Origin: a virus
Reading direction: 5' to 3' (one strand)
Length of the DNA stretch: 30,840 nucleotides
Virus record (IMG/VR): IMGVR_UViG_3300036985_003518
Location: 1 to 30,840 of that record
Shown: piece after piece, positions 4,036 through 30,010 of the stretch
How positions within the stretch are numbered: position 1 is the first letter of the stretch
Layout: each line of letters begins with the position of its first letter
Translations under genes and position numbers: made by a program
The notes under the pieces: generated by a model
The model's database searches: none
What the model was told of the DNA's origin: nothing
The model's input: only the letters and a program-made list of their open reading frames with translations

Positions 4036-5613
4036 ATCTCCAGTACGTTTAATAAAAGATAGTGGCGGATAAGTGTTTATTTTAAGTTCTGAACGCTCTT
4101 TACCATCCGTTTCAGTAGCCTTTCCTTTCTTTGCTCCAGCCCAATCCCAATTATTCTCTCTTACACGATATTTATATTTAACCGCATCAATTCTTTTTTC
4201 ATCAGTTTTGATTCTTTCTTCAAGGTTTGAAATATATCTTTTTTTATACGCTAAAACTTGTTCCTCGCCTTTTAAATCTTTGTAGTAAAAATATTTTTTT
4301 CCTTTTAGTTGCCATTTCCAAAAATCGCCACCAGAAAAACCAGTATCGCCCTCGCTACCTTTAAAAAACTCATCGTAATCTTGTTTTCCCTTTAGTGTAT
4401 TTACTTTTACAAGTTTTTCTTTATTTTCCTCTAATCTTTTTAAACCATAACCGCTCTCTTTTTCAATCATCATTAAAGATTCTGGCAACGATAACGCCTC
4501 GTAATCTTTTGCCGTTTCAATAGTTTCTCTTACGGGGTCGCTACCAATAGTAATAAAGTTTACAAATCTTTTACCAAAAACTTCGGTAAATAATTGTTTT
4601 GCTACATAATTAGAACCTTGTCTTGAAAACCCTAAAGACTTAACAAATTCTGCCTCAATATCTGTTAAAGCGTGTACGTCTATATTATATAATTCGTTTC
4701 TGTAATTTCGTGATGAGTTTTTTATGTTAATTATATCTACTTCTTTTTGAGTTCCAATATCGGTATTTTCATTAAAATTTTTTTCAAGCGCCTCTATTTT
4801 TAAAGCCAATTCATCTACTTTTGATTGAAAATATTCTTTATCTTTTATTTTTTGTGCCGTTTCATCTTCAATATTTTCAATTAGTTCTGGTTTTAAAATT
4901 TTAATTATTTCTCGGATGCCAGTTCCTATTGTTTTTTGAGACCGAAAATCCTCAAAATCTTTTACGCTAAAAACACTTTCCATAGCCGTAGCCAGATATG
5001 TTGCATAACCTACATAAACTTTACGTTTTTCTTTTTTGTTTGGCGGTTCTCCAGCAAAAGCCTCACGTAATTTTACCTTTAAAAATACCGCTCCAGATGA
5101 AACGCCTTTGCCACGTTCCGCCTCAATGTCAACCTTTGGATAAACTTTGTCTTTTTTAATTAACTCAATAGCCGTTGCCTCATCGGTTTCAATTCCCTCT
5201 AAATCAGATAAGCCATAAACTTGACCTTTAAGTAATCGGTATGCAGATTTTTCTTTGGCGCTACCACCTATTCTACCCTCTGTATCACTAAAGGTTTTGC
5301 CCTCTTGCTTTTTCCTTAAACGTTCCTCAACCTTTGCGGTTAAATTTTCGTTTGGGTTAAAAATATCGCTTTCTGGCACGTTTTCAATATCGGTTAAACC
5401 AACCTTAATTTTATACATATATTCAGCGTTTCCGCTTTCAGCTAATTGCTCAAAACTTTTAGCGGTGCTTACTTTGGTATCACTAATAGCAATAACATAG
5501 CCTTGTTTACCCTTAAAGTATTTCTCGCTATAAGGCTTGTACTCGCCCTCTTCTTCTGTATATTTGTCCTTGTTAAATTCAACAAGACTACCTATTCTGT
5601 ATTTTGCGCTCAT
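4027..5613 (-). CDS. Polyvalent protein, N-terminal part of the LPD1 protein
   Basis: The 528-residue product starts 10 bp after the helicase gene ends. Residues 1-85 look like a beta-barrel of the KOW/Tudor kind (YRIGSLVEF, KGKQGYVIAI, MYKIKVGL). The middle (about 170-330) is helical and unrecognised, with VSSGAVFLKVKLREAF and VYVGYATYLATAMESVF. A Trp- and Lys-rich region (WKWQLKGKKYFYYKDLKGEEQVLAYKKR begins this, in parts) precedes the C-terminus PPLSFIKRTGDKN. In intact LPD1 proteins a segment of that type (L-x-x-I-x-R-x-G) directly precedes the domain, so this gene probably continues into the frame at 4031-2709. Its function, whether as a carrier of effector domains or a virion-delivered protein, is inferred from family context. 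Confidence 0.75.
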   Translation of the reverse strand: MSAKYRIGSLVEFNKDKYTEEEGEYKPYSEKYFKGKQGYVIAISDTKVSTAKSFEQLAESGNAEYMYKIKVGLTDIENVPESDIFNPNENLTAKVEERLRKKQEGKTFSDTEGRIGGSAKEKSAYRLLKGQVYGLSDLEGIETDEATAIELIKKDKVYPKVDIEAERGKGVSSGAVFLKVKLREAFAGEPPNKKEKRKVYVGYATYLATAMESVFSVKDFEDFRSQKTIGTGIREIIKILKPELIENIEDETAQKIKDKEYFQSKVDELALKIEALEKNFNENTDIGTQKEVDIINIKNSSRNYRNELYNIDVHALTDIEAEFVKSLGFSRQGSNYVAKQLFTEVFGKRFVNFITIGSDPVRETIETAKDYEALSLPESLMMIEKESGYGLKRLEENKEKLVKVNTLKGKQDYDEFFKGSEGDTGFSGGDFWKWQLKGKKYFYYKDLKGEEQVLAYKKRYISNLEERIKTDEKRIDAVKYKYRVRENNWDWAGAKKGKATETDGKERSELKINTYPPLSFIKRTGDKN

Positions 5614-5623
5614 TTATCTGTTT

Positions 5624-8600
5624 TTATATCATTTTTTCAAAAAAACCTCTGTCTTTGTCGAAATCAATATCATTAAAATACATTGTTTTTCCTTTCGGCT
5701 TTCTTACTGAATTATCTGTAAATTCTACTTTGTAGCCTTTGTTAGTTTTTTCAATAATCTTAGCGGTTGCATCCATATATTTATGTTTATAAATAGTTCC
5801 TCCATTTTTAAAAGCACCTTTTCTATAAGCATTTATAGTTTTAGCTGACATAGGAGAACCACCATCAATGTAATTTTGAGCCTCTTTTAAGGTATCAAAT
5901 TCCTCATCATTTGCATAGTATTTATCAGAGTTTGGTTCATACATTATTTCCTCGTCTTTATATTCAATAAATTCAATTTCGCCACCGTTTTTAAATATGC
6001 CAAATCTTTTCTTTTTAGGCTCTGCTTGTTTTGTATATCCAATTATTTCGCTTGGCATCACTTTAACTTGCGTAAATGATGTTGAAATAGTGTAACCATC
6101 GTTTAAAATATCAGTAATAGTGCCACTAACAACTTTTTCTTCGCCCTTTCTACCATAGTAAAAATCAACCACGTCTTTTAATTTGTAATCTCCAACTCCA
6201 CCACCTAAAGCGTACTCATCAAATTCACTTTTACCCTTTGTGCCTATTGGTCTTAAATCGTATGGTTGATTATCTAAGCCAGATTCAAAAGTATAACCAA
6301 CTGCATAAACCTCATCGTGCATATCAGCCATATCTTTGTAGTCCATATCTGATAAATCATCGCCAAACTTTTCAGCATATTTATCTAAAATAGTTTGCAC
6401 TTTTTCTGGTATGTTTTCGTAATCTTCAAACAAATCAATTCCTTGCTCATCTATACCGCCTCCAGTTTCTAATTTTACAGATGTAAAAAAGCCTTCTGGC
6501 GTTCTTCTTTTAGCGCTAATATCTTGTAAAGAGCCGTGTTTTTCAATAATTTTCTTTTTTAATTCATCAACGTTTTTTGCCGTAAAAAGAGTATCTCTCA
6601 TATCTGTACTCCCTCCTACTTTTTGAACTTCGTACATAAAACCGCCTCTGCCATATTCATTAATATCGCCTCCAGTTTTCTTTTTTAATGTAGGGTTGTT
6701 ATAGAAAAAACCATCCATACAACCTACTACTTCTTTTTTAGTTTTTAGGTTCATATAAACGCACTCATCTAACTTTGGAAAGTACCCTAAACACTCATAA
6801 CCTACGCCTTGCTCATCGTAAAAAATATGCCCTTTATGTTTGTTACTTCTTTTTTCAAGTTCAACTCCATCTTTTGTTTTAACTGTATTGGATGTTTGAA
6901 CGCCTCCACCTCTGCGCATTAACAATTCTTGGTTATTAAAAACACGTAATAAATTGATTAATTTTTTCTTTGCTGAAAGTTTACGTTTTTCCAGTTCAAA
7001 TTCAGCACCTTGTTTTTTATCATTTTCGGCTTGTTCTAAAGCATCGGCAATAGCTTGTTGTTCCTCATCAAACGCTTTTTGTTTTTCAGCATCAGCGCCC
7101 TCTCTATTAACCTCTGTTAGTTTTTCGATAAACACGTCTGGTTCTGGTTTTTTCTCCTCATCAGCGTATTCCTCTGCCATTAAATCGCCTTTAATTCTAT
7201 CAAACTCTTGCTCGATTAGGTCAACGGAACTACTAAAATTATCTTGTAAGTAGTTCACTAAATTGGTTATTTTACGTTCCTCAATAGTTGCAACCATTTG
7301 GTCTGCACTTTTATTAAAAGTTCCCTCTCTTGTTAATTTTATAATAGTTGCATCCAGATAAAATTTAGAACCTTTTTGCTTATTAAGTGGAACTAAAATT
7401 TTATAAAAATCATTACTTCTTATTAGTGAAAATAAATCGTTAGTTTGAATACTTCTACCAATAGACATTGACTTAATGATAGGTAAAGCCTTAACAATAG
7501 GTACTGTAATTCGCATTGCTTTTTTGTCGCCTCTTGCCTCCGTTGTAAAATATTCTGGTAACAAAATACCTTTTTTTACACCTCCAGTTGACGTTGTATA
7601 GCTAATTAAACTACCTCTTAATTCTTGCTTACCAAATGCTTGTAAAATATTTCCAGTAACAATGTAACGAATAGACTTATCAGTTGCTTTTTCCTTAATA
7701 ACATCCTCCCAGTTGTTAAGCATATCATCTTGCTCATCACTATAAATATTTTCGTATGTTAAAGCCCTTACACTATCTAATATTTGAAACTTAGATGCTG
7801 GTACAGAAACGTAGCGCTGACTACCAGCTATTGCAAATCTCAATTTAAGTGCCGATGGCGAGTATGGGTTTTTAACGGCATCATTTATTACAAAACCAAC
7901 AAAAATACCTTTGTAATATGCTCCATCAATGGAATATGTTACGCTTGGGTAAGCAACAACTTTACCAACATAGAAAAAATTAAAAATTCTACTAATATTA
8001 TCTTTTTTATTTCGAGTGCTTGTTTTAATCATTTCTAATGACTTTTCTCGAGCATCATTTATAACTTCAGTTCTTTCCTCAACATATTTAACAATATTTT
8101 CAGTTTTTAATGCTTGTTTTTCTTTTTTAATATTTGCAATAAGATTATCAGAATGTTCATTTTGCTCCTTAATATCATTTTCTAAATTTGTTACAACAAA
8201 CTTTTCGTATTTATCAATTATTGATGTTTTTAAACTTTCTGGTGTGTAACTGCCTAAAGATTCTTTTATAATTGCATCTAATTCCGATTTGCTATATGGT
8301 TTTTTTAGGTTATTTACGCTACACTTTTCTAATATAGAATGTCTGCCAAAAACACTATCTCCGCCTTTACCAACAACTACAATTTCTTTAGATAAAATTT
8401 CTGCACCTAAATTCATATTTTCAACCTCTAAATCGTATTCTCCAGATTGTCTTAAATATTCAATTTCGGCAATATATCTTTGTGCTATTTCGATATAAAA
8501 AGTTTCTTGGTCTTTTGTCGATAAAATTGCAACCCTACCAGATACTTTGTGCGCACCATCAATAATGTTAGGCGTTTCGCCCTCTTTTGTGTCAACTATC

Positions 8601-11600
8601 TTTAAAGGGTCTCCAATTTGTAAATTAATAAGTGGGTTTTCTCTTAAATAATCAAAAACAATTCTGTCTCCATATTTATTTAAAAAATCAACTTGTCTTA
8701 CATCCATTAATTCCTCCGACTGCTTTTGACTTGACGTAGTGTTGGCATCTAAAGACTTTAGCTTTTTTTGTAGCATCATCATTAAACGTTTTTCTGCTGG
8801 AATAGAACTAATAACATAATCGTAAATAGGTTTAAATATTTGACCAGTACGATTGATACGACCACGTTTTTGAACCTCTGTATTAATGTTTAATTCTGCT
8901 TGTAAAATAATTAAAACACGTTGCTTTACTTTGTCTGCTTTTATTTTAGCGTTTGGCAAAGCGTGTGCGGATGCTCCAGTTGAACCAGATTGATTGATTA
9001 ACAAACAGTCAATTTCGTTATTGTTAAATTGTCTGAAACCATCGTTTGCGCCAATTTTAACTCTCGACTTAACTTGTCCTTTGTCGCCTCCTAAAATTTT
9101 TAATTGTCTGTCTCGACCAGTAACCTCAACGCAACTATAACCAGCCTTATTTATTCTGTCAACAAGCGTGTCAATAGGACTGCTACTAATACCAATAGAT
9201 GCACCTTTAATTTTATTTAAAATTCTAAAATATTCTGCTTGAAAGCGCTCATCCATAGCCATTACATCAAGTGTCATTGGCGTTGAATTTCCCTCTGCAT
9301 CTTTTTCTGTGTACTTTAAAACACCAGCAAGTCTTTTTTCAAAAATCTTACTAAAATCGGCATTAACAATATCGCCATCTTCAACTGGCGAACCATCATC
9401 GTTGCTCATTGTGTTTAAAAAAGACTCCATTGTACTTGCAAAAGCAATTACTGGCTTTTTGCCCTCTTTTAATCTTTGTATTGCTACATCCCCAACCGCT
9501 ATTGCCTTAATTGAAAATAGTAATTGATTAATTATATTAAAAACTCCACTAAATACTGGTGGGTTATCAACTCCAGCGCCTTTAGTTCCCTTTCTTTTGT
9601 CAACTTCTTTATATTCTGCTTTTGCAATTTTATCAAGTTGGTCAATTACTAAATCTACATAGTCTCTTTGAAAGTTTATAATATCACGAATAATATCGGT
9701 AGCCCTATCCATTATTGCACGATGAGACACTTCTAAATCTAAATTTGGATAACCTCTTTTTGCTTGTGAAACATCCAGATATTCGTAATTAACTTCAATA
9801 CCCTCAAAAGAACGCTCCCTACGAATCATTTGTCCCTCTGAAACCAGATTAGAACTCACAATCTCTTGTAAAGCAACGCCTCCAAGCATAATAGCCGATA
9901 CTAATTGGTCGCTTGTCATATTTGCATCACTCATAGCCGTTTTACCAGCATAAATAGGCATATTGTCTGGTCGTTTTGAGAAAGTTGCTGAAAGGAATGT
10001 AACACCTAAAGCGCCCTCTAAAACTTTACCTAAAAATGTACCAACGTTTGACTTACCACTTGCATTGTGGCTCTCATCCATAATTACAATGTTTCCTTGC
10101 GCAATTTTCAATAAGTACTGCATTTTTGTACTATCAGTAGCGCCTCTAAATTGGCTATAAGTAGAAAGCACAAAGTCGTAACCCTCTGGAATTTTACCGC
10201 TATCAATTATATTTTTGTTTTCATTTGGTGCTAACCCTTTGTATAAAATATGTCCCTCCTCATCTTTAATTGCGGTTTTTGAACCACTACCATTAACGAT
10301 GTAAGGTATCATTGATTTTTTTCTGGTTCTTTTAACCCTTGTTGAGTTTCCATTTTCGTCTGTTTTTACAAACGTATAACTGTTTGGATAATCTGGGTTT
10401 CTTTTATAAACTGGTATTAAAACCGTTTCTGTTTGTTCTAAATCGCTATCTTCCTCATCATCATCATCGCTATCTTCGGCATCTTTTTTTACTAATTTTT
10501 TTTCAACTTCTTTCGTACCAACTAATATATCTAAAGGAATATCATCATCGCTACCAATAGCAATAATATCACGGAATAAATCAGAAAATAAGTTTGGCTT
10601 TTCTGTTAAGAAAATTGGCTTTAAACCTCTATTAATAGCATATCTTACCATACCTCCAGCAATACGACCTTTACCAATACCAGTTTGGTCGCCAATAATA
10701 CATCCTTGCCCTTTTTCCTCAATGTTATAAATAGCTACTGCAATGGCATCAACTTGTTCAGATGAGAAAGCATCGCATAAACACTTTAAACCATCTTTAC
10801 GTTGCTCCATAGTGCAATTTCCAACTATATAGCCGAGTTTTTCAGCAACAAACTCATCCACGCCATTAACTCTGCGGTCAATAGTTTCAATAGCTTTGTG
10901 CATATCGTAACGCATAGATGCTGGTACAACTGTATCTACTGACTTACAACTTTCGGATGCTGGTATATAAGATAAATCTTTTACTTGCGCATTTTGTAAT
11001 TGTATTTCCTCCAAAGGTGCTTTGTTTACCTCTGTTTGCATAATGCTTTCAACTATTTTGGTTTCTGTTTTAGTCTCGTTTGTCATTTCCTTTTTTTTAA
11101 AAACTGTTGTATCTTTATATTGCTCAAATTCCGCCTCTGTAAATGTACCCTCATTTCCACTTGCGTTTCTATTTTTTTGCCAATCCTTTGCTTTTTCTGG
11201 TATAAATATTTTTCTTACTGGCTTATTACGTGTATCTAAATAATCAGTCATACCTAAAGTACGTGTACCAAAACCATCGTAAGATTCCGTTGCCGTAGTG
11301 TAATAAACATCGCCTTTAACCTCTTTTTCAACTGCCAATATAAGTTCATTTTCTGGCACTAATTCTGGTTCACTTTGTGAATCCCACTTAATTAAATATT
11401 CGTTATTAGGCTCAATGCTTTGAACCGTTCCTTTAATAGAATTATCATCAGCTATTGATATTCTGTCGTATAAATTAAATTTTGGCATTTTTTCTTTATT
11501 TAATTGCTCTACAAGTTTTTTGTAACTCGCTTGTTTCGGTGTATCTAATTTTTCTAAAAATTGAGGTGCTAACTCATATTTTTCAGCATCTTTTTTTGAT

Positions 11601-11950
11601 ATAAAAATAAATGGAAATAATCTTGCATCCCTTTTGTCTGGGTTGTTAGCAATTAATCTACCGCTATCACTTGCAAGTTTTTGTAATCTTCTTTTTATTT
11701 TTTGAGCCTCCCTCACGTCTTTTTCATCAAGTATAACACTAATTTTTACTTCATTATCTGTTATTGAAAGTAAGCCTACCGTTTGTGTTAAATTTAACTG
11801 AATCATACCGCCATCATTTGTAAATTCAACACTTACAATATTATCTGCATAAACGTCAATCGTATTTAATTCTAATTCGCTTAAAAATTTACCTTTTGAT
11901 AAACCTCCGCTAAATTCAAAGTCCCAATCGTATTTTTGTTGTTTTTCCAT
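5624..11950 (-). CDS. Giant Strawberry-notch-type helicase (DarB-like polyvalent protein)
   Basis: The 2108-residue product carries a superfamily-2 helicase core of the Strawberry-notch type. Seen motifs: Walker A-like GDQTGIGKGR (about residue 420), DESH box (about 625), SAT box in TFLSATFSKRP (about 655), and the C-terminal helicase lobe with SGSTGASAHA and QKRGRINRTGQ (about 1030). The first ~330 residues are beta-rich and helical of unknown fold. Residues ~1500-2108 are modules separated by Gly-Gly joints (RRGGGVQ, KTGGDIN, ETGGGID, ALGGGVG, KNGGEI, KNGGTI). The neighbouring methyltransferase starts one base upstream of its ATG, so the pair mirrors phage P1 DarB, which joins both activities, enters with the DNA and blocks type I restriction. 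Anti-restriction is inferred, not shown. Confidence 0.9.
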   Translation of the reverse strand: MEKQQKYDWDFEFSGGLSKGKFLSELELNTIDVYADNIVSVEFTNDGGMIQLNLTQTVGLLSITDNEVKISVILDEKDVREAQKIKRRLQKLASDSGRLIANNPDKRDARLFPFIFISKKDAEKYELAPQFLEKLDTPKQASYKKLVEQLNKEKMPKFNLYDRISIADDNSIKGTVQSIEPNNEYLIKWDSQSEPELVPENELILAVEKEVKGDVYYTTATESYDGFGTRTLGMTDYLDTRNKPVRKIFIPEKAKDWQKNRNASGNEGTFTEAEFEQYKDTTVFKKKEMTNETKTETKIVESIMQTEVNKAPLEEIQLQNAQVKDLSYIPASESCKSVDTVVPASMRYDMHKAIETIDRRVNGVDEFVAEKLGYIVGNCTMEQRKDGLKCLCDAFSSEQVDAIAVAIYNIEEKGQGCIIGDQTGIGKGRIAGGMVRYAINRGLKPIFLTEKPNLFSDLFRDIIAIGSDDDIPLDILVGTKEVEKKLVKKDAEDSDDDDEEDSDLEQTETVLIPVYKRNPDYPNSYTFVKTDENGNSTRVKRTRKKSMIPYIVNGSGSKTAIKDEEGHILYKGLAPNENKNIIDSGKIPEGYDFVLSTYSQFRGATDSTKMQYLLKIAQGNIVIMDESHNASGKSNVGTFLGKVLEGALGVTFLSATFSKRPDNMPIYAGKTAMSDANMTSDQLVSAIMLGGVALQEIVSSNLVSEGQMIRRERSFEGIEVNYEYLDVSQAKRGYPNLDLEVSHRAIMDRATDIIRDIINFQRDYVDLVIDQLDKIAKAEYKEVDKRKGTKGAGVDNPPVFSGVFNIINQLLFSIKAIAVGDVAIQRLKEGKKPVIAFASTMESFLNTMSNDDGSPVEDGDIVNADFSKIFEKRLAGVLKYTEKDAEGNSTPMTLDVMAMDERFQAEYFRILNKIKGASIGISSSPIDTLVDRINKAGYSCVEVTGRDRQLKILGGDKGQVKSRVKIGANDGFRQFNNNEIDCLLINQSGSTGASAHALPNAKIKADKVKQRVLIILQAELNINTEVQKRGRINRTGQIFKPIYDYVISSIPAEKRLMMMLQKKLKSLDANTTSSQKQSEELMDVRQVDFLNKYGDRIVFDYLRENPLINLQIGDPLKIVDTKEGETPNIIDGAHKVSGRVAILSTKDQETFYIEIAQRYIAEIEYLRQSGEYDLEVENMNLGAEILSKEIVVVGKGGDSVFGRHSILEKCSVNNLKKPYSKSELDAIIKESLGSYTPESLKTSIIDKYEKFVVTNLENDIKEQNEHSDNLIANIKKEKQALKTENIVKYVEERTEVINDAREKSLEMIKTSTRNKKDNISRIFNFFYVGKVVAYPSVTYSIDGAYYKGIFVGFVINDAVKNPYSPSALKLRFAIAGSQRYVSVPASKFQILDSVRALTYENIYSDEQDDMLNNWEDVIKEKATDKSIRYIVTGNILQAFGKQELRGSLISYTTSTGGVKKGILLPEYFTTEARGDKKAMRITVPIVKALPIIKSMSIGRSIQTNDLFSLIRSNDFYKILVPLNKQKGSKFYLDATIIKLTREGTFNKSADQMVATIEERKITNLVNYLQDNFSSSVDLIEQEFDRIKGDLMAEEYADEEKKPEPDVFIEKLTEVNREGADAEKQKAFDEEQQAIADALEQAENDKKQGAEFELEKRKLSAKKKLINLLRVFNNQELLMRRGGGVQTSNTVKTKDGVELEKRSNKHKGHIFYDEQGVGYECLGYFPKLDECVYMNLKTKKEVVGCMDGFFYNNPTLKKKTGGDINEYGRGGFMYEVQKVGGSTDMRDTLFTAKNVDELKKKIIEKHGSLQDISAKRRTPEGFFTSVKLETGGGIDEQGIDLFEDYENIPEKVQTILDKYAEKFGDDLSDMDYKDMADMHDEVYAVGYTFESGLDNQPYDLRPIGTKGKSEFDEYALGGGVGDYKLKDVVDFYYGRKGEEKVVSGTITDILNDGYTISTSFTQVKVMPSEIIGYTKQAEPKKKRFGIFKNGGEIEFIEYKDEEIMYEPNSDKYYANDEEFDTLKEAQNYIDGGSPMSAKTINAYRKGAFKNGGTIYKHKYMDATAKIIEKTNKGYKVEFTDNSVRKPKGKTMYFNDIDFDKDRGFFEKMI

Positions 11951-11951
11951 C

Positions 11952-13247
11952 TTAAATGCTTTTGTTTATTCGTTCCCAGAGTACATCAAAACTGTTTACT
12001 GGCGTTGGAGAGTTTATTTCGTTCATTGGTATAGGGTTCTCAATTAATGGAGGGAAACCGCTTGGCGTTTCCTTTCTGCCATCAATTAAAATAAGCCTTG
12101 TATTAAAAGCCGTTCCTTGTCTGCTATACAAATGCCTACCAGATATATTAATTACATCCATTACGTTATAATGCTTGTACAAATATACAAAATAGGTTCT
12201 GTTTTTGCCAGACTGGATGCGACCCTCTTTGTCGTATTCTGTATGCCCTCCAATTATAATAGCGCACCTACCGTTATCTTTCATTGTATCTAAAGCCCTT
12301 AAACTCATAACTTGTTCAAGGCTTTTAATATCAGACTTTCCGTATGTTACTACTTCTGTTTTACCGAATGGTGGGTTGGTTATAACTGCATCAAACTTAT
12401 GCTCAAACTCTTTAAATGGTTCAGAGGCATCTTGTTTTAATACTTTTTTAAAACCTAATACACTTAAATTTCGGTTTCTTACTGTGTCAATTTCGTTTAC
12501 TGTAAAATCTTCGGTCTTACCAGCTATTGTTAATAAGCCGTTACCAGCACTCGGCTCAAAATAATTGCCTCCCTCTTTGTCAAAACCACAAAATAAACCA
12601 GCCAAATAGCCTATTGGCGCTGGTGTGCTATATTGTTGCAACATTATACTTTCACTTGTGCGGTGGCTTAAATTAACTTGGCTTTCGTATAGTTTTACTA
12701 TTTTTTCAAATCTTTGTTTTGGTGTGAGTGCGCCCTTTAAATTGTAATAGTGAGCGTAAACCCTTGCAACAAAAGAAATGCTTAACTCCGCTAATTCCTT
12801 TGCTAAATTTTGCTCTTTAATTCCGAACTCATTTGCCAGTTTTTCTAACTTAATTTTATTATACTTTACATCAGCGTAATTGTCTCTAATTAGTTTATCG
12901 ACAAACTTTTGTTCGTTTTCTGCAAATAAAGAATTTTTAATGTCTTTTATTTTAGGCTTTGAAACCTCAACATCAGCATCATCGCCAACGCCAACTGTAT
13001 TAAAGCCATCGTTATTTATTTTAGATTCCTTTAAAAATATATCATTGCTTACATCCTTTAACATTTTATTTTGTGGCTCTGCAAAAAACATAGCATCAAA
13101 AATAGCCCTATCAAGTACTTCAATCCTTTGACTATGTTCAGTTCCGTTTTCTTTAATTGCACGATGCAACAAATTAATGGCATCTTGAATATCCGTATCG
13201 AATATATCAAAATTAAAGTCTTTATTTTCTAAATATGTTATTATCAT
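11952..13247 (-). CDS. N6-adenine-type DNA methyltransferase, partner of the Strawberry-notch helicase
   Basis: The 431-residue product has a methyltransferase core: LQQYSTPAPIGYLAG before the S-adenosylmethionine motif FEPSAGNG (about residue 230), DAVITNPPFG as the catalytic (N/D)PP(Y/F) motif (about 290), and MKDNGRCAIIIGGHTEY as the following strand. The first ~180 residues are helical and unrecognised. Together with the helicase it matches the split arrangement of DarB-like systems. TAA of the upstream gene and ATG of this one share one base (TAATG), and its own stop lies 1 bp from the helicase ATG, so translation is tightly coupled. The target site is unknown. It could modify DNA or act without methylation as part of the anti-restriction complex. 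Confidence 0.88.
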   Translation of the reverse strand: MIITYLENKDFNFDIFDTDIQDAINLLHRAIKENGTEHSQRIEVLDRAIFDAMFFAEPQNKMLKDVSNDIFLKESKINNDGFNTVGVGDDADVEVSKPKIKDIKNSLFAENEQKFVDKLIRDNYADVKYNKIKLEKLANEFGIKEQNLAKELAELSISFVARVYAHYYNLKGALTPKQRFEKIVKLYESQVNLSHRTSESIMLQQYSTPAPIGYLAGLFCGFDKEGGNYFEPSAGNGLLTIAGKTEDFTVNEIDTVRNRNLSVLGFKKVLKQDASEPFKEFEHKFDAVITNPPFGKTEVVTYGKSDIKSLEQVMSLRALDTMKDNGRCAIIIGGHTEYDKEGRIQSGKNRTYFVYLYKHYNVMDVINISGRHLYSRQGTAFNTRLILIDGRKETPSGFPPLIENPIPMNEINSPTPVNSFDVLWERINKSI

Positions 13248-21753: not shown

Positions 21754-23247
21754 TTAGAATGGTAAATTATCGTACTCATCTTCTTGTTCTGGTTCATTTG
21801 AGTTTGGGCTTTCGCTCAAAAAATCATTATTTTCTGCTATTTTTTTTGGCTCTGGTGTGGTAAACGAACTACTTTGATTGCTCTTAAACGTGTCGTAGTT
21901 TTCAAGTTTAGTTAATTCGCCATTAAAACCAAGCCTTAACTCGCCCAAACTACCAGCACGATGTTTGGCTACAATTAAAGACATTAAGCCGTTACACTCC
22001 AGCGTTTCGCCTCCTATTTCGTATGTTTCAATTCCATAGTACTCTGGTCGGTAACAAAATATAACCATATCGGCATCTTGTTCAATACTACCAGATTCAC
22101 GTAAGTCGCTTAACATTGGTTTTTTGTCTCCGCCTCTGCTTTCAACCGCTCTGCTTAATTGACTTAGTGCTATGATAGGAACATCAAGTTCTTTTGCAAG
22201 TGCTTTTAACCCTTTGCTTATCATTGAAACCTCTTGCTCCCTATTGCCTTTACCAGCATCAACGGTCATTAACTGTAAATAGTCAATAACAATTAACCTC
22301 ACTTTTTTATCTCTAACTAATTTACGTGCCTTGCCCTTTAAATCAATAAGGCTTAAAGATGGCGTGTCATCAATATAAATAGGTGCGGTGTTAAGTTCTA
22401 AACAACGGCTTTCAACAAGCAATACCTCGTCAACTGTTAATTGCTTTTTTATTATTCGGCTTGAATTTATTCCAGATAAACTACTTTGCGCCCTACCTAC
22501 TAACTGGTCGTTTGACATTTCCAAACTAAATACTGCGGTTGCTATATTATCTCTAATAGCTGGGTTCAAAGCAAATGCCAAAGCGCAAACAGATTTCCCC
22601 ATTGCTGGTCTCCCAGCTAAAATAATAAGGTCTGTTTTTTGCCAACCATTTGTAAAATTGTCAATATTTCTAAAACCAGTTGGTACGCCAGACTTAATAC
22701 CACTTTGAGCAACAAATATACTTTCTGCAATAACTTTTTCGTGTACCTTTCCAATTTGCTTTACATCGTATTTAATTACTCCAGATATTGCACCCTCAAT
22801 TTTTGTTATACCTTTCTGAAACGTATCAAAAACATCCAAAGTGTCATCGTAAGCGTTTTTAATATTTTCAGTACTTAAACGTATCATTTCACGTTTTAAA
22901 AATTGTTGTACCACAATTCTGGAATGATACTCAATGTTAGATGATGATGCAATTCTGTTAGTAAGACTACTAATATAATAAGCGCCTCCAACTTCTTCGA
23001 GTTTATCCAAACTTTTTAACTTTTGACAAACTGTTAGAATATCAATAGGACTGGAGCGCTTATACAAATCAATAATAGCCATAAATAAGATTTGATTAGC
23101 CTCTTTATAAAAACACTCTGGCGTAAGAATATCCACGACTAAATTAATAGCCTCACTTTCGAGCATACAAGCGCCTAATATAGCCTCCTCTAATTCTACC
23201 GATTGAGGTTGCAATAAGCCGTACTCTGGTTGTTTTCTTTTAGTCAT
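21754..23247 (-). CDS. dnaB: Replicative DNA helicase DnaB
   Basis: The 497-residue product has both DnaB domains. The N-terminal helical domain begins QPQSVELEEAILGACMLES. The C-terminal RecA-like domain has GVPTGFRNIDNFTNGWQ, Walker A GRPAMGKS (about residue 213), MSNDQLVGR, LIVIDYLQLM as Walker B, SQLSRAVESR and DLRESGSIEQDADMV. It should form the hexameric ring that unwinds the phage fork. The C-terminal ~45 residues are an added low-complexity tail rich in Ser, Asn and Glu that ends DEYDNLPF, much like the protein-binding tip of bacterial SSB. It overlaps the DUF3127 gene by 8 bases. No phage DnaC-type loader was recognised. Confidence 0.95.
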   Translation of the reverse strand: MTKRKQPEYGLLQPQSVELEEAILGACMLESEAINLVVDILTPECFYKEANQILFMAIIDLYKRSSPIDILTVCQKLKSLDKLEEVGGAYYISSLTNRIASSSNIEYHSRIVVQQFLKREMIRLSTENIKNAYDDTLDVFDTFQKGITKIEGAISGVIKYDVKQIGKVHEKVIAESIFVAQSGIKSGVPTGFRNIDNFTNGWQKTDLIILAGRPAMGKSVCALAFALNPAIRDNIATAVFSLEMSNDQLVGRAQSSLSGINSSRIIKKQLTVDEVLLVESRCLELNTAPIYIDDTPSLSLIDLKGKARKLVRDKKVRLIVIDYLQLMTVDAGKGNREQEVSMISKGLKALAKELDVPIIALSQLSRAVESRGGDKKPMLSDLRESGSIEQDADMVIFCYRPEYYGIETYEIGGETLECNGLMSLIVAKHRAGSLGELRLGFNGELTKLENYDTFKSNQSSSFTTPEPKKIAENNDFLSESPNSNEPEQEDEYDNLPF

Positions 23248-28614: not shown

Positions 28615-28643
28615 ATTTTTATAGTTTTTAGTTTAACAATACA

Positions 28644-28651
28644 CAAATATA
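28644..28651 (-). promoter_or_regulatory. Promoter for the 79-aa gene (TATATTTG)
   Basis: The minus strand reads CGTGTATATTTGTGT, with TATATTTG as the -7 box, 30 bp before the ATG at 28614. A TTTG lies 22 bp upstream of the box (in ACGTTTGTCGG) and may act as the -33 element. Confidence 0.65.
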
Positions 28652-28944
28652 CACGTTAATTCGATACCTCCGACAAACGTGTTGAAAAAAAGTTATAAAC
28701 ATAGCTTAACTCACTCATTTTCAGTCAATTAAATTTTAGTTCACACTCCCTTGCGTGTGTTATACGTGTATATATAATGTATGTTTGTGTGTGCTATACG
28801 TGTGTGCGCCTTTACTGGCGTGGGTTGTACGCAATTATATCACGTACCAGCGTATAAATATGCGCTCATATACGGACATAAATTTTAATAACAAAATAAA
28901 AAGTGTTAAATTTTAGTGGATGTGCGTAACTTTTTACGTTTACC

Positions 28945-28980
28945 TATAATGTTAATAAATACCGTATAATGTTAATAAAT
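28945..28980. repeat. Two direct 16-bp repeats with a 20-bp period
   Basis: TATAATGTTAATAAAT occurs at 28945-28960 and again at 28965-28980, with matching TACC flanks. Two copies spaced by two helical turns suggest binding sites on one face of the DNA, as in iterons or tandem operators. Confidence 0.65.
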
Positions 28981-28986
28981 CGTAAC

Positions 28987-29085
28987 CTAAAGGGTGTTTT
29001 TTACCCTCTTTTTTGCCCTCTTTTTAACAAAAAAAAGTGTCGATTTTGGGTTATAAATTCTTTTCAACATTCTTGCAAAGTTCAT
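28987..29085 (-). CDS. Possible small basic peptide (32 aa)
   Basis: ATG 29085-29083 to TAG 28989-28987 encodes 32 residues with 12 lysines or arginines (MNFARMLKRIYN, then FFVKKRAKKRVKNTL). It lies just after the polymerase-like gene. The start context is not the usual AAATAAG, and much of the charge comes from A-rich and GAGGG repeats, so it may be non-coding. Confidence 0.2.
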   Translation of the reverse strand: MNFARMLKRIYNPKSTLFFVKKRAKKRVKNTL

Positions 29086-29113
29086 AACTATTTCGTATAT
29101 GCAAACGCTTTTT

Positions 29114-30010
29114 TTACCGCCCAAAAAATTGTGATGTATCTTCAATCGTACTATTGACTATTTGAGATAGTGAATATTCATAGTAACGCTCAACTCCAGT
29201 CGCAATAACACGCCCTTTCTCGTTTTTCTTAGTTCCATCAAAGTCAAGCCAAGTAACTCGTTTCTTTGCACGGTCAACGCTAATGAACTCAACTGGCTTA
29301 TTCTTTACTTTGTAGCCCTCATCCATCAAATAACGCTCAACCCAGCGCTTTTTGTCGTATGTAGTAACGATACAGTCCGTTAAAAACATACAAAACGTGT
29401 TACCCATTTGCGAAAATAAGTACTCAAACATTTTAAATACGTGAGTAATGATGTGATTGCGGATGTATTGGTAATGTACTGGTGTACGCTCAATTCTCCT
29501 TGCTGAAAGTACTGGTTTACCGCCCTCGAATGGTACTATTGTAGTACTTTTACATAAAGAACCAATACAAGCGTTTCGCCCTACTTTCCAGTCTTTTTTT
29601 CTTTTACCGATTAAATAAGTTTCGTATGTGATGTAACCCAGTTTATAAGCGGTGCGCCAGTAACAATCATTAATATCAATCATTACTAAGCATTTACCGA
29701 TGTTACGTTCAATAGCATCCAGATTAAACATTTGCTCCGAATAGTTATTGCCGTATGCCAGTAGCGTGTCTCCTTTAGTTTCCATAAAGCTATCAATGTC
29801 TTTCATAAACAACTTATTCAAATGGTGTCCGTGTCCGCCACTCCCTTGCAAATCTAATGATATATACTCTTTGCCGTTGTACTGTATCTTATCCACGCTC
29901 CCAGAACTTCGATAAATAAAAGACTTACCCTCACGAATCAGATATTCCTTTGTGTTTATGAATGTTTCACGTTCCGTGATTACAATTTTCTTTAGTTTTT
30001 CCGTTTCCAT
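29114..30010 (-). CDS. Compact family-B DNA polymerase palm-like protein
   Basis: The 298-residue product contains, in order, the three palm motifs of family-B polymerases. Motif A is VMIDINDCYWRTAYKLGYI (Asp112, Tyr117), motif B is KVGRNACIG (Lys142, Asn146, Gly150; the K-x3-N-x3-G pattern), and motif C is MFLTDCIVTT (Asp212). The usual D-T-D of motif C is reduced to L-T-D, but the second, catalytic Asp remains. Ordinary family-B polymerases have 570-900 residues with a 3'-5' exonuclease; here the ~105-residue N-terminal part shows no exonuclease motifs. It could be a minimal polymerase, a primase-like enzyme or a palm-derived non-enzyme. It lies 8 bp after the lysine-tailed protein and next to the repeat-rich gap. 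The family name is inferred from motifs only. Confidence 0.6.
   Translation of the reverse strand: METEKLKKIVITERETFINTKEYLIREGKSFIYRSSGSVDKIQYNGKEYISLDLQGSGGHGHHLNKLFMKDIDSFMETKGDTLLAYGNNYSEQMFNLDAIERNIGKCLVMIDINDCYWRTAYKLGYITYETYLIGKRKKDWKVGRNACIGSLCKSTTIVPFEGGKPVLSARRIERTPVHYQYIRNHIITHVFKMFEYLFSQMGNTFCMFLTDCIVTTYDKKRWVERYLMDEGYKVKNKPVEFISVDRAKKRVTWLDFDGTKKNEKGRVIATGVERYYEYSLSQIVNSTIEDTSQFFGR

Follow-up and report, generated by a model that had tools for sequence, protein, structure and literature searches.

A palm-like protein of about 300 residues encoded beside a basic protein near a probable genome end in a rare group of uncultured phages

The 30,840-bp virus record analyzed here, referred to below as the window, encodes close to one end a 298-residue protein in which motifs reminiscent of family-B DNA polymerases (PolBs) survive a test of conservation, though not as those of a proven family-B enzyme. 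The protein is likely to adopt a palm fold, and its family has no match in any of the protein-family libraries tried. Its bearers are a rare group of uncultured phages, in which the palm-like gene lies second from one genome end. This position is the most useful addition of the present work, since it makes a concrete hypothesis testable, namely that a compact palm polymerase initiates DNA synthesis at the ends of the genome, its primer or partner being the basic protein encoded beside it, and that a host enzyme carries out elongation. The hypothesis is offered tentatively. The features concerned are the following.

29114-30010, minus strand: gene for the 298-residue palm-like protein, supported by its open reading frame, its homologues (L001:109-987 and L012:822-1727) and its codon-position bias
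29654-29677, minus strand: motif A, D112-I-N-D-C-Y-W-R (residues 112-119), with D112, Y117 and W118 invariant in the three homologues
29561-29587, minus strand: motif B, K142-VGRNACIG150, with K142, R145, A147 and G150 invariant and N146 replaced by Leu in L012
29372-29383, minus strand: motif C, L210-T-D212-C, with D212 invariant and T and C replaced by V and G in L012
30019-30804, minus strand: gene for a 261-residue basic protein (pI 9.6, Lys-rich N terminus), a candidate terminal or partner protein whose gene ends 8 bp before the palm gene and whose homologue is encoded in the inverted repeat of contig G001
30805-30840, no strand: contig end, 36 bp upstream of the ATG of the basic gene
28620-29113, no strand: intergenic region that follows the palm gene downstream, of 31% G+C and containing short direct repeats

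The preliminary description, made from the sequence alone, had reported a 298-residue protein with three PolB palm motifs, and its inventory of residues holds. The minus-strand ORF does encode 298 amino acids, D112, K142, N146, G150 and D212 stand where they had been placed (DINDCY, K142-x3-N146-x3-G150 and T-D212-C), and the two putative metal-binding aspartates are retained, the first Asp of the DTD having been lost from a motif C that reads LTDC. The view that the protein has no exonuclease domain and only a short thumb is likewise borne out by the 111 residues which precede D112, too few for an exonuclease-sized N terminus, and by the 86 which remain after D212. The gene is under selection, its nucleotide differences from the closer homologue numbering 95/85/176 at codon positions 1/2/3. 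The possibility that the ORF is a fragment of a longer PolB was ruled out, as stop codons delimit it and its length differs little among the three members.

Two homologues of the protein were found, both in IMG/VR. The closer one (L001, 58% identity) is encoded on a 64,784-bp contig, G001, which represents the genome of a relative, and the more distant one (L012, 27% identity) occupies the same genomic position; the latter was located by using the downstream DUF932 gene as bait, and its tblastn E value of about 1e-6 over motifs A-B applies among the candidates only. Across the three sequences 52 residues are invariant, and 20 of these fall within the 48 positions of the motif windows (Fisher P about 1e-5). 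They comprise L108, I111, D112, I113, Y117, W118, T120, A121, L124, G125 and I127 around motif A, K142, R145, A147, G150, L152 and K154 around motif B, and G203, F206 and D212 around motif C. The expectation that the motif residues would be conserved in homologues is thereby upheld for D112, D212, Y117, K142 and G150 but not for N146, T211 and C213, which vary, as does C116. Motif A reads DINDCYW or DITTAYW, with D and Y invariant and the S, L and P of the family-B pattern D-x2-S-L-Y-P replaced. In motif B, compared with K-x3-N-S-x-Y-G, the Lys and Gly are invariant, the Asn is present in two of the three homologues and the Tyr is replaced by Ile or Leu. Motif C reads LTDC (FLTDC) or WVDG (YWVDG), so that only the second Asp of D-T-D is kept. 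The textual match to the motifs is weak when taken alone; conservation strengthens it, because the invariant residues concentrate in the motif windows. Within the sensitivity of the searches, neither phage nor plasmid records nor GTDB genomes yielded a relative of the protein. Scanning IMG/VR with DNA patterns for the three motifs produced chance matches only, besides the record of L001 itself, profile-based scans of IMG/VR, for which poor stretches had been chosen, added nothing new, and plasmid and gut-phage loci with DUF932 relatives showed no recognizable palm gene. Four related contigs (L011, L013, L014 and L015) break 24-681 bp upstream of their DUF932 gene, near the position that the repeat-rich stretch occupies in the window.

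The protein resembles the protein-primed PolBs (phi29 gp2, PRD1 P1 and His1 ORF12) in the order of its motifs, in a D-[IV]-N-x-x-Y motif A, in a K-x7-G motif B and in the B-to-C spacing, which is 66-70 residues in the homologues and 63-95 in a comparison set of 11 phage and archaeal-virus PolBs. The sensible spacing first ascribed to the motifs stands for B to C (70 residues in the window protein) but fails for A to B (30 residues); the three homologues have 28-30 residues versus 120-162 in the 11 PolBs in this interval, which in family B contains the fingers and, in protein-primed members, TPR1. Unlike the protein-primed PolBs, the protein has neither an exonuclease domain (106-124 residues precede the motif-A Asp in the homologues, with no Pfam match to a 3'-5' exonuclease) nor TPR1 and TPR2, its tail after motif C measures 82-86 residues, compared to 94-278 in the 11 PolBs, and no significant profile similarity connects it to them. 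Loss of the first Asp of DTD is not disqualifying, because the annotated PolB of His1 lacks it as well, its motif C at about residue 562 reading MLATDCVMIEE (ATDC), and because the catalytic carboxylates of phi29, Asp249 and Asp458 (246 and 455 in the sequence record used for spacing), correspond to the Asp of motif A and the second Asp of motif C (PMC4974454).

At the sequence level, the proposed assignment to family B is unsupported. A motif-matrix scan gave the window protein 13.9 bits, a score equaled by 19 of 4000 shuffles, and L012 6.2 bits (335 of 4000 shuffles), and in L001 the best placement missed motifs A and B as proposed; the range for true PolBs is 82-138 bits. HHalign against full PolBs was not significant, with a probability below 1%. 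Against a spliced PolB core, from which the A-to-B insertion had been cut out in order to favor the family-B hypothesis, all three motifs and the helix before motif C came into register. The score was 14.95-15.85 according to settings, yet column-permuted controls reached 15.85 in 53 of 400 cases, and the DKD register itself arose in 3 of 400. Since the profile comparison with PolBs did no better than permuted controls, and the register arises among them, membership in family B is not established. Pfam, PHROGs, NCBIfam, PADLOC and PDB sequences yielded no meaningful match for the protein, and none to a polymerase.

Structure prediction bears on the broader question of a palm. AlphaFold modeling with two close sequences (the window protein and L001) reached a pLDDT of only 36; with L012 as query and three sequences the mean pLDDT was 46.5, and about 60-75 around the motifs. 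In the latter model a strand at 120-125, with D125 at its end, is followed by predicted helices at 126-136, 142-150, 153-165 (motif B) and 184-209, and then by a strand at 214-217, D219 in a hairpin turn, a strand at 220-225 and a helix at 227-239. This is the palm order of elements, β-α-(fingers)-α-β-β-α-β with two carboxylates, at a pLDDT of 46.5. When the L012 model was compared with the PDB by Foldseek, ranks 1-10 were nearly all palm enzymes (telomerase and the HIV, retron and DRT9 reverse transcriptases), and AbiP2 appeared at rank 32; no match was below E 0.001, the best having an E of 0.098 and TM scores being at most 0.23. A viral structure library returned one "DNA polymerase B-like" phage protein besides several RdRps and fragments of polymerases, likewise with none below E 0.001. 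The window-protein model gave random matches and no palm enzyme, and the enrichment obtained with the L012 model is not generic, because the poorer model does not produce it. The L012 model and its Foldseek list thus lend moderate support to a palm core but do not discriminate between PolB and the other families with this fold.

The strongest alternative is that the protein has some other, unrelated fold and that the likeness of its short D-x4-Y, K-x7-G and single-Asp patterns to polymerase motifs is a coincidence; we regard this as possible, if somewhat unlikely. It would account for motif-matrix scores that lie far under those of true PolBs and are reached by shuffled sequences of both the window protein and L012, for the absence of a profile match anywhere tried and for the low confidence of both structure models; it sits less well with the clustering of invariant residues in the motif windows and with the palm enzymes at the top of the PDB matches of the L012 model. 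A palm fold is indicated, though not proven.

As to the kind of palm, reverse transcriptases (retron, DRT9, HIV and telomerase) provide the top Foldseek matches of the L012 model and share with the protein a motif-A Asp with an aromatic residue at D+5. Unlike them, the protein has no YxDD (it has FLTDC or YWVDG), no reverse-transcriptase motif B and two predicted helices between motifs A and B, and PADLOC gave no reverse-transcriptase match for it. We infer from the model that these two helices favor a fingers insertion of the A/B type over that of reverse transcriptases. Comparison can also be drawn with the truncated A-family polymerase primases, in which, as proposed in PMC10061031, mobile elements use a reduced palm of the replicative type for priming; unlike those, the protein lacks the A-family motif pattern by eye and has no family match in any library.

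The surroundings of the gene point to the genome ends. A gene for a basic protein of 222-261 residues lies directly upstream of the palm gene in all three members, and the window, G001 and L012 contigs each have an end close to where this gene starts; the end of the window contig is probably close to a physical genome end. G001 begins 108 bp before the palm ATG, within the tail of the homologous basic gene, and its bases 1-111 match exactly, in inverted orientation, positions 64052-64162, where the basic gene recurs and is followed by unrelated sequence with no palm gene. This is the sole exact inverted match of at least 30 nt in the contig. As it is what an assembler would yield from collapsed repeats, it suggests that G001 is linear, with inverted terminal repeats which include the basic gene and which were collapsed in assembly, an arrangement that is indicated rather than proven; an invertible segment would look the same. 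In L012, 156 bp separate the contig start from the basic gene found upstream there (222 residues, pI 9.8), which overlaps the start of the palm gene by 4 bp. The window and G001 basic proteins are homologues of each other, and that of L012 has no evident homology to either; searches found no homology of the basic proteins to known terminal proteins (TPs). The order of genome end, basic protein and polymerase is shared with PRD1 (TP at 233-1012, PolB at 1016-2677). The preliminary description had also placed the gene beside DNA rich in direct and inverted repeats. Exact direct repeats downstream of the gene indeed exceed the expectation of a Markov model, with eight repeated 11-mer pairs (0 of 1000 simulations), but exact inverted 11-mers are absent and only imperfect inverted arms occur.

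Regarding other replication functions, a phage DnaB gene is found at 21754-23247 of the window, and G001 has DnaB, two matches of the DnaA C-terminal type, DUF3127/SSB, RusA, a PD-(D/E)XK exonuclease-like protein and a HerA-like ATPase. Among the families listed for some 80 G001 ORFs scanned, a few of them in part, there was no Pfam-recognizable polymerase or primase, and no DnaG- or PrimPol-type match. One G001 ORF (L022:283-933, minus strand) resembles the DNA-binding C-terminal domain of DnaA and, judging by its sequence, is presumably one of the two matched by Bac_DnaA_C. G001 also carries two tandem genes for Tet/JBP-type dioxygenases (L019:4398-5264 and 5519-6394), to which the Pfam Tet_JBP matches in two members are provisionally assigned; they are not at the same place in the window, and their products could act on thymine or cytosine bases to modify phage DNA. 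A 275-residue HerA/DUF87-like ATPase (L020:13064-13888, E 9e-4) is encoded in G001 beside many small membrane-anchored-looking proteins, and no terminase was seen. It could be the packaging ATPase of a tailless membrane-containing phage, although 65 kb is unusually large for such a phage and some tail-like PHROG matches argue against it. In the window, a predicted 2108-residue strawberry-notch-type helicase-like protein (5624-13247, minus strand) is encoded beside a 431-residue methyltransferase-like protein.

In the mechanism favored here, the protein would be a stand-alone compact palm-type nucleotidyltransferase. Its architecture would run from the strand and helix of motif A through a very short fingers insertion, whose two helices bear motif B, and a long helix to the motif-C hairpin with its single Asp, and finish in a C terminus of a helix plus strands; D112 and D212 would be the ligands of two metals, and Y117, at D+5, would select the sugar. 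The protein would be produced along with the basic protein, whose gene directly precedes its own at the end of a linear phage genome, and would start DNA synthesis at the genome ends, where the first nucleotide or nucleotides would probably be added to the basic protein, or a short primer made, after which the host replicase would take over. The gene, the conservation of its key residues, its place in the gene order at a contig end and the inverted match in G001 are established; the catalytic activity, the priming by the basic protein and the hand-over to the host enzyme are what we infer beyond them, and the genome ends are preferred as the site of action because gene order and contig-end position point there. 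That no Pfam polymerase or primase came up among the G001 ORFs scanned, although DnaB did, also speaks for this mechanism. Several observations count against such an end-initiating polymerase: the DnaB and DnaA-C-like genes of G001 suggest ordinary origin-based replication as well, model confidence is low, HHalign scores lie among the permuted controls, there is no TPR1/TPR2-sized room for terminal-protein contacts, and the basic neighbor in L012 lacks evident homology to the others.

The protein might instead be a palm-type primase, making primers for the phage DnaB and a host polymerase at forks or at an origin, with no role at the ends. This we consider unlikely. The presence of DnaB in the window and G001, the lack of a DnaG- or PrimPol-type match among the scanned G001 ORFs and the repeat-rich region of 31% G+C adjoining the palm gene would all suit such an enzyme; phages with DnaB, however, commonly borrow the DnaG of the host, and gene order and contig-end position indicate the genome ends instead. 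Truncated A-family polymerase primases paired with SSB, which PMC10061031 proposes in mobile elements, offer a further parallel in favor of a primase. Less likely still is a palm fold that no longer polymerizes and whose role as a partner of, for example, the basic protein or DnaB is structural or regulatory, for although DTD has lost its first Asp, the motif-B Asn is not conserved and the fingers and thumb are reduced, both metal-binding aspartates, the steric-gate Tyr and the motif-B Lys are invariant across 27% identity, which would be unexpected in a dead site.

Taken at its fullest, the end-initiation reading describes a palm polymerase of about 300 residues, without an exonuclease, which together with a basic partner encoded in the terminal repeats initiates at the ends of a linear genome of about 65 kb before the host replicase continues; this version, which would make the protein an initiating polymerase of a kind not yet described, is unlikely on present evidence. 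If the palm reading is true, the protein would be a very small stand-alone palm protein of the replicative type, showing how little polymerase is needed to start a chain. Systems of the phi29 type carry out initiation and elongation with one enzyme; if the protein works at the genome ends with its basic partner, a very small strand-initiating enzyme would become available for study, and initiation would here be split from elongation in protein-primed replication.
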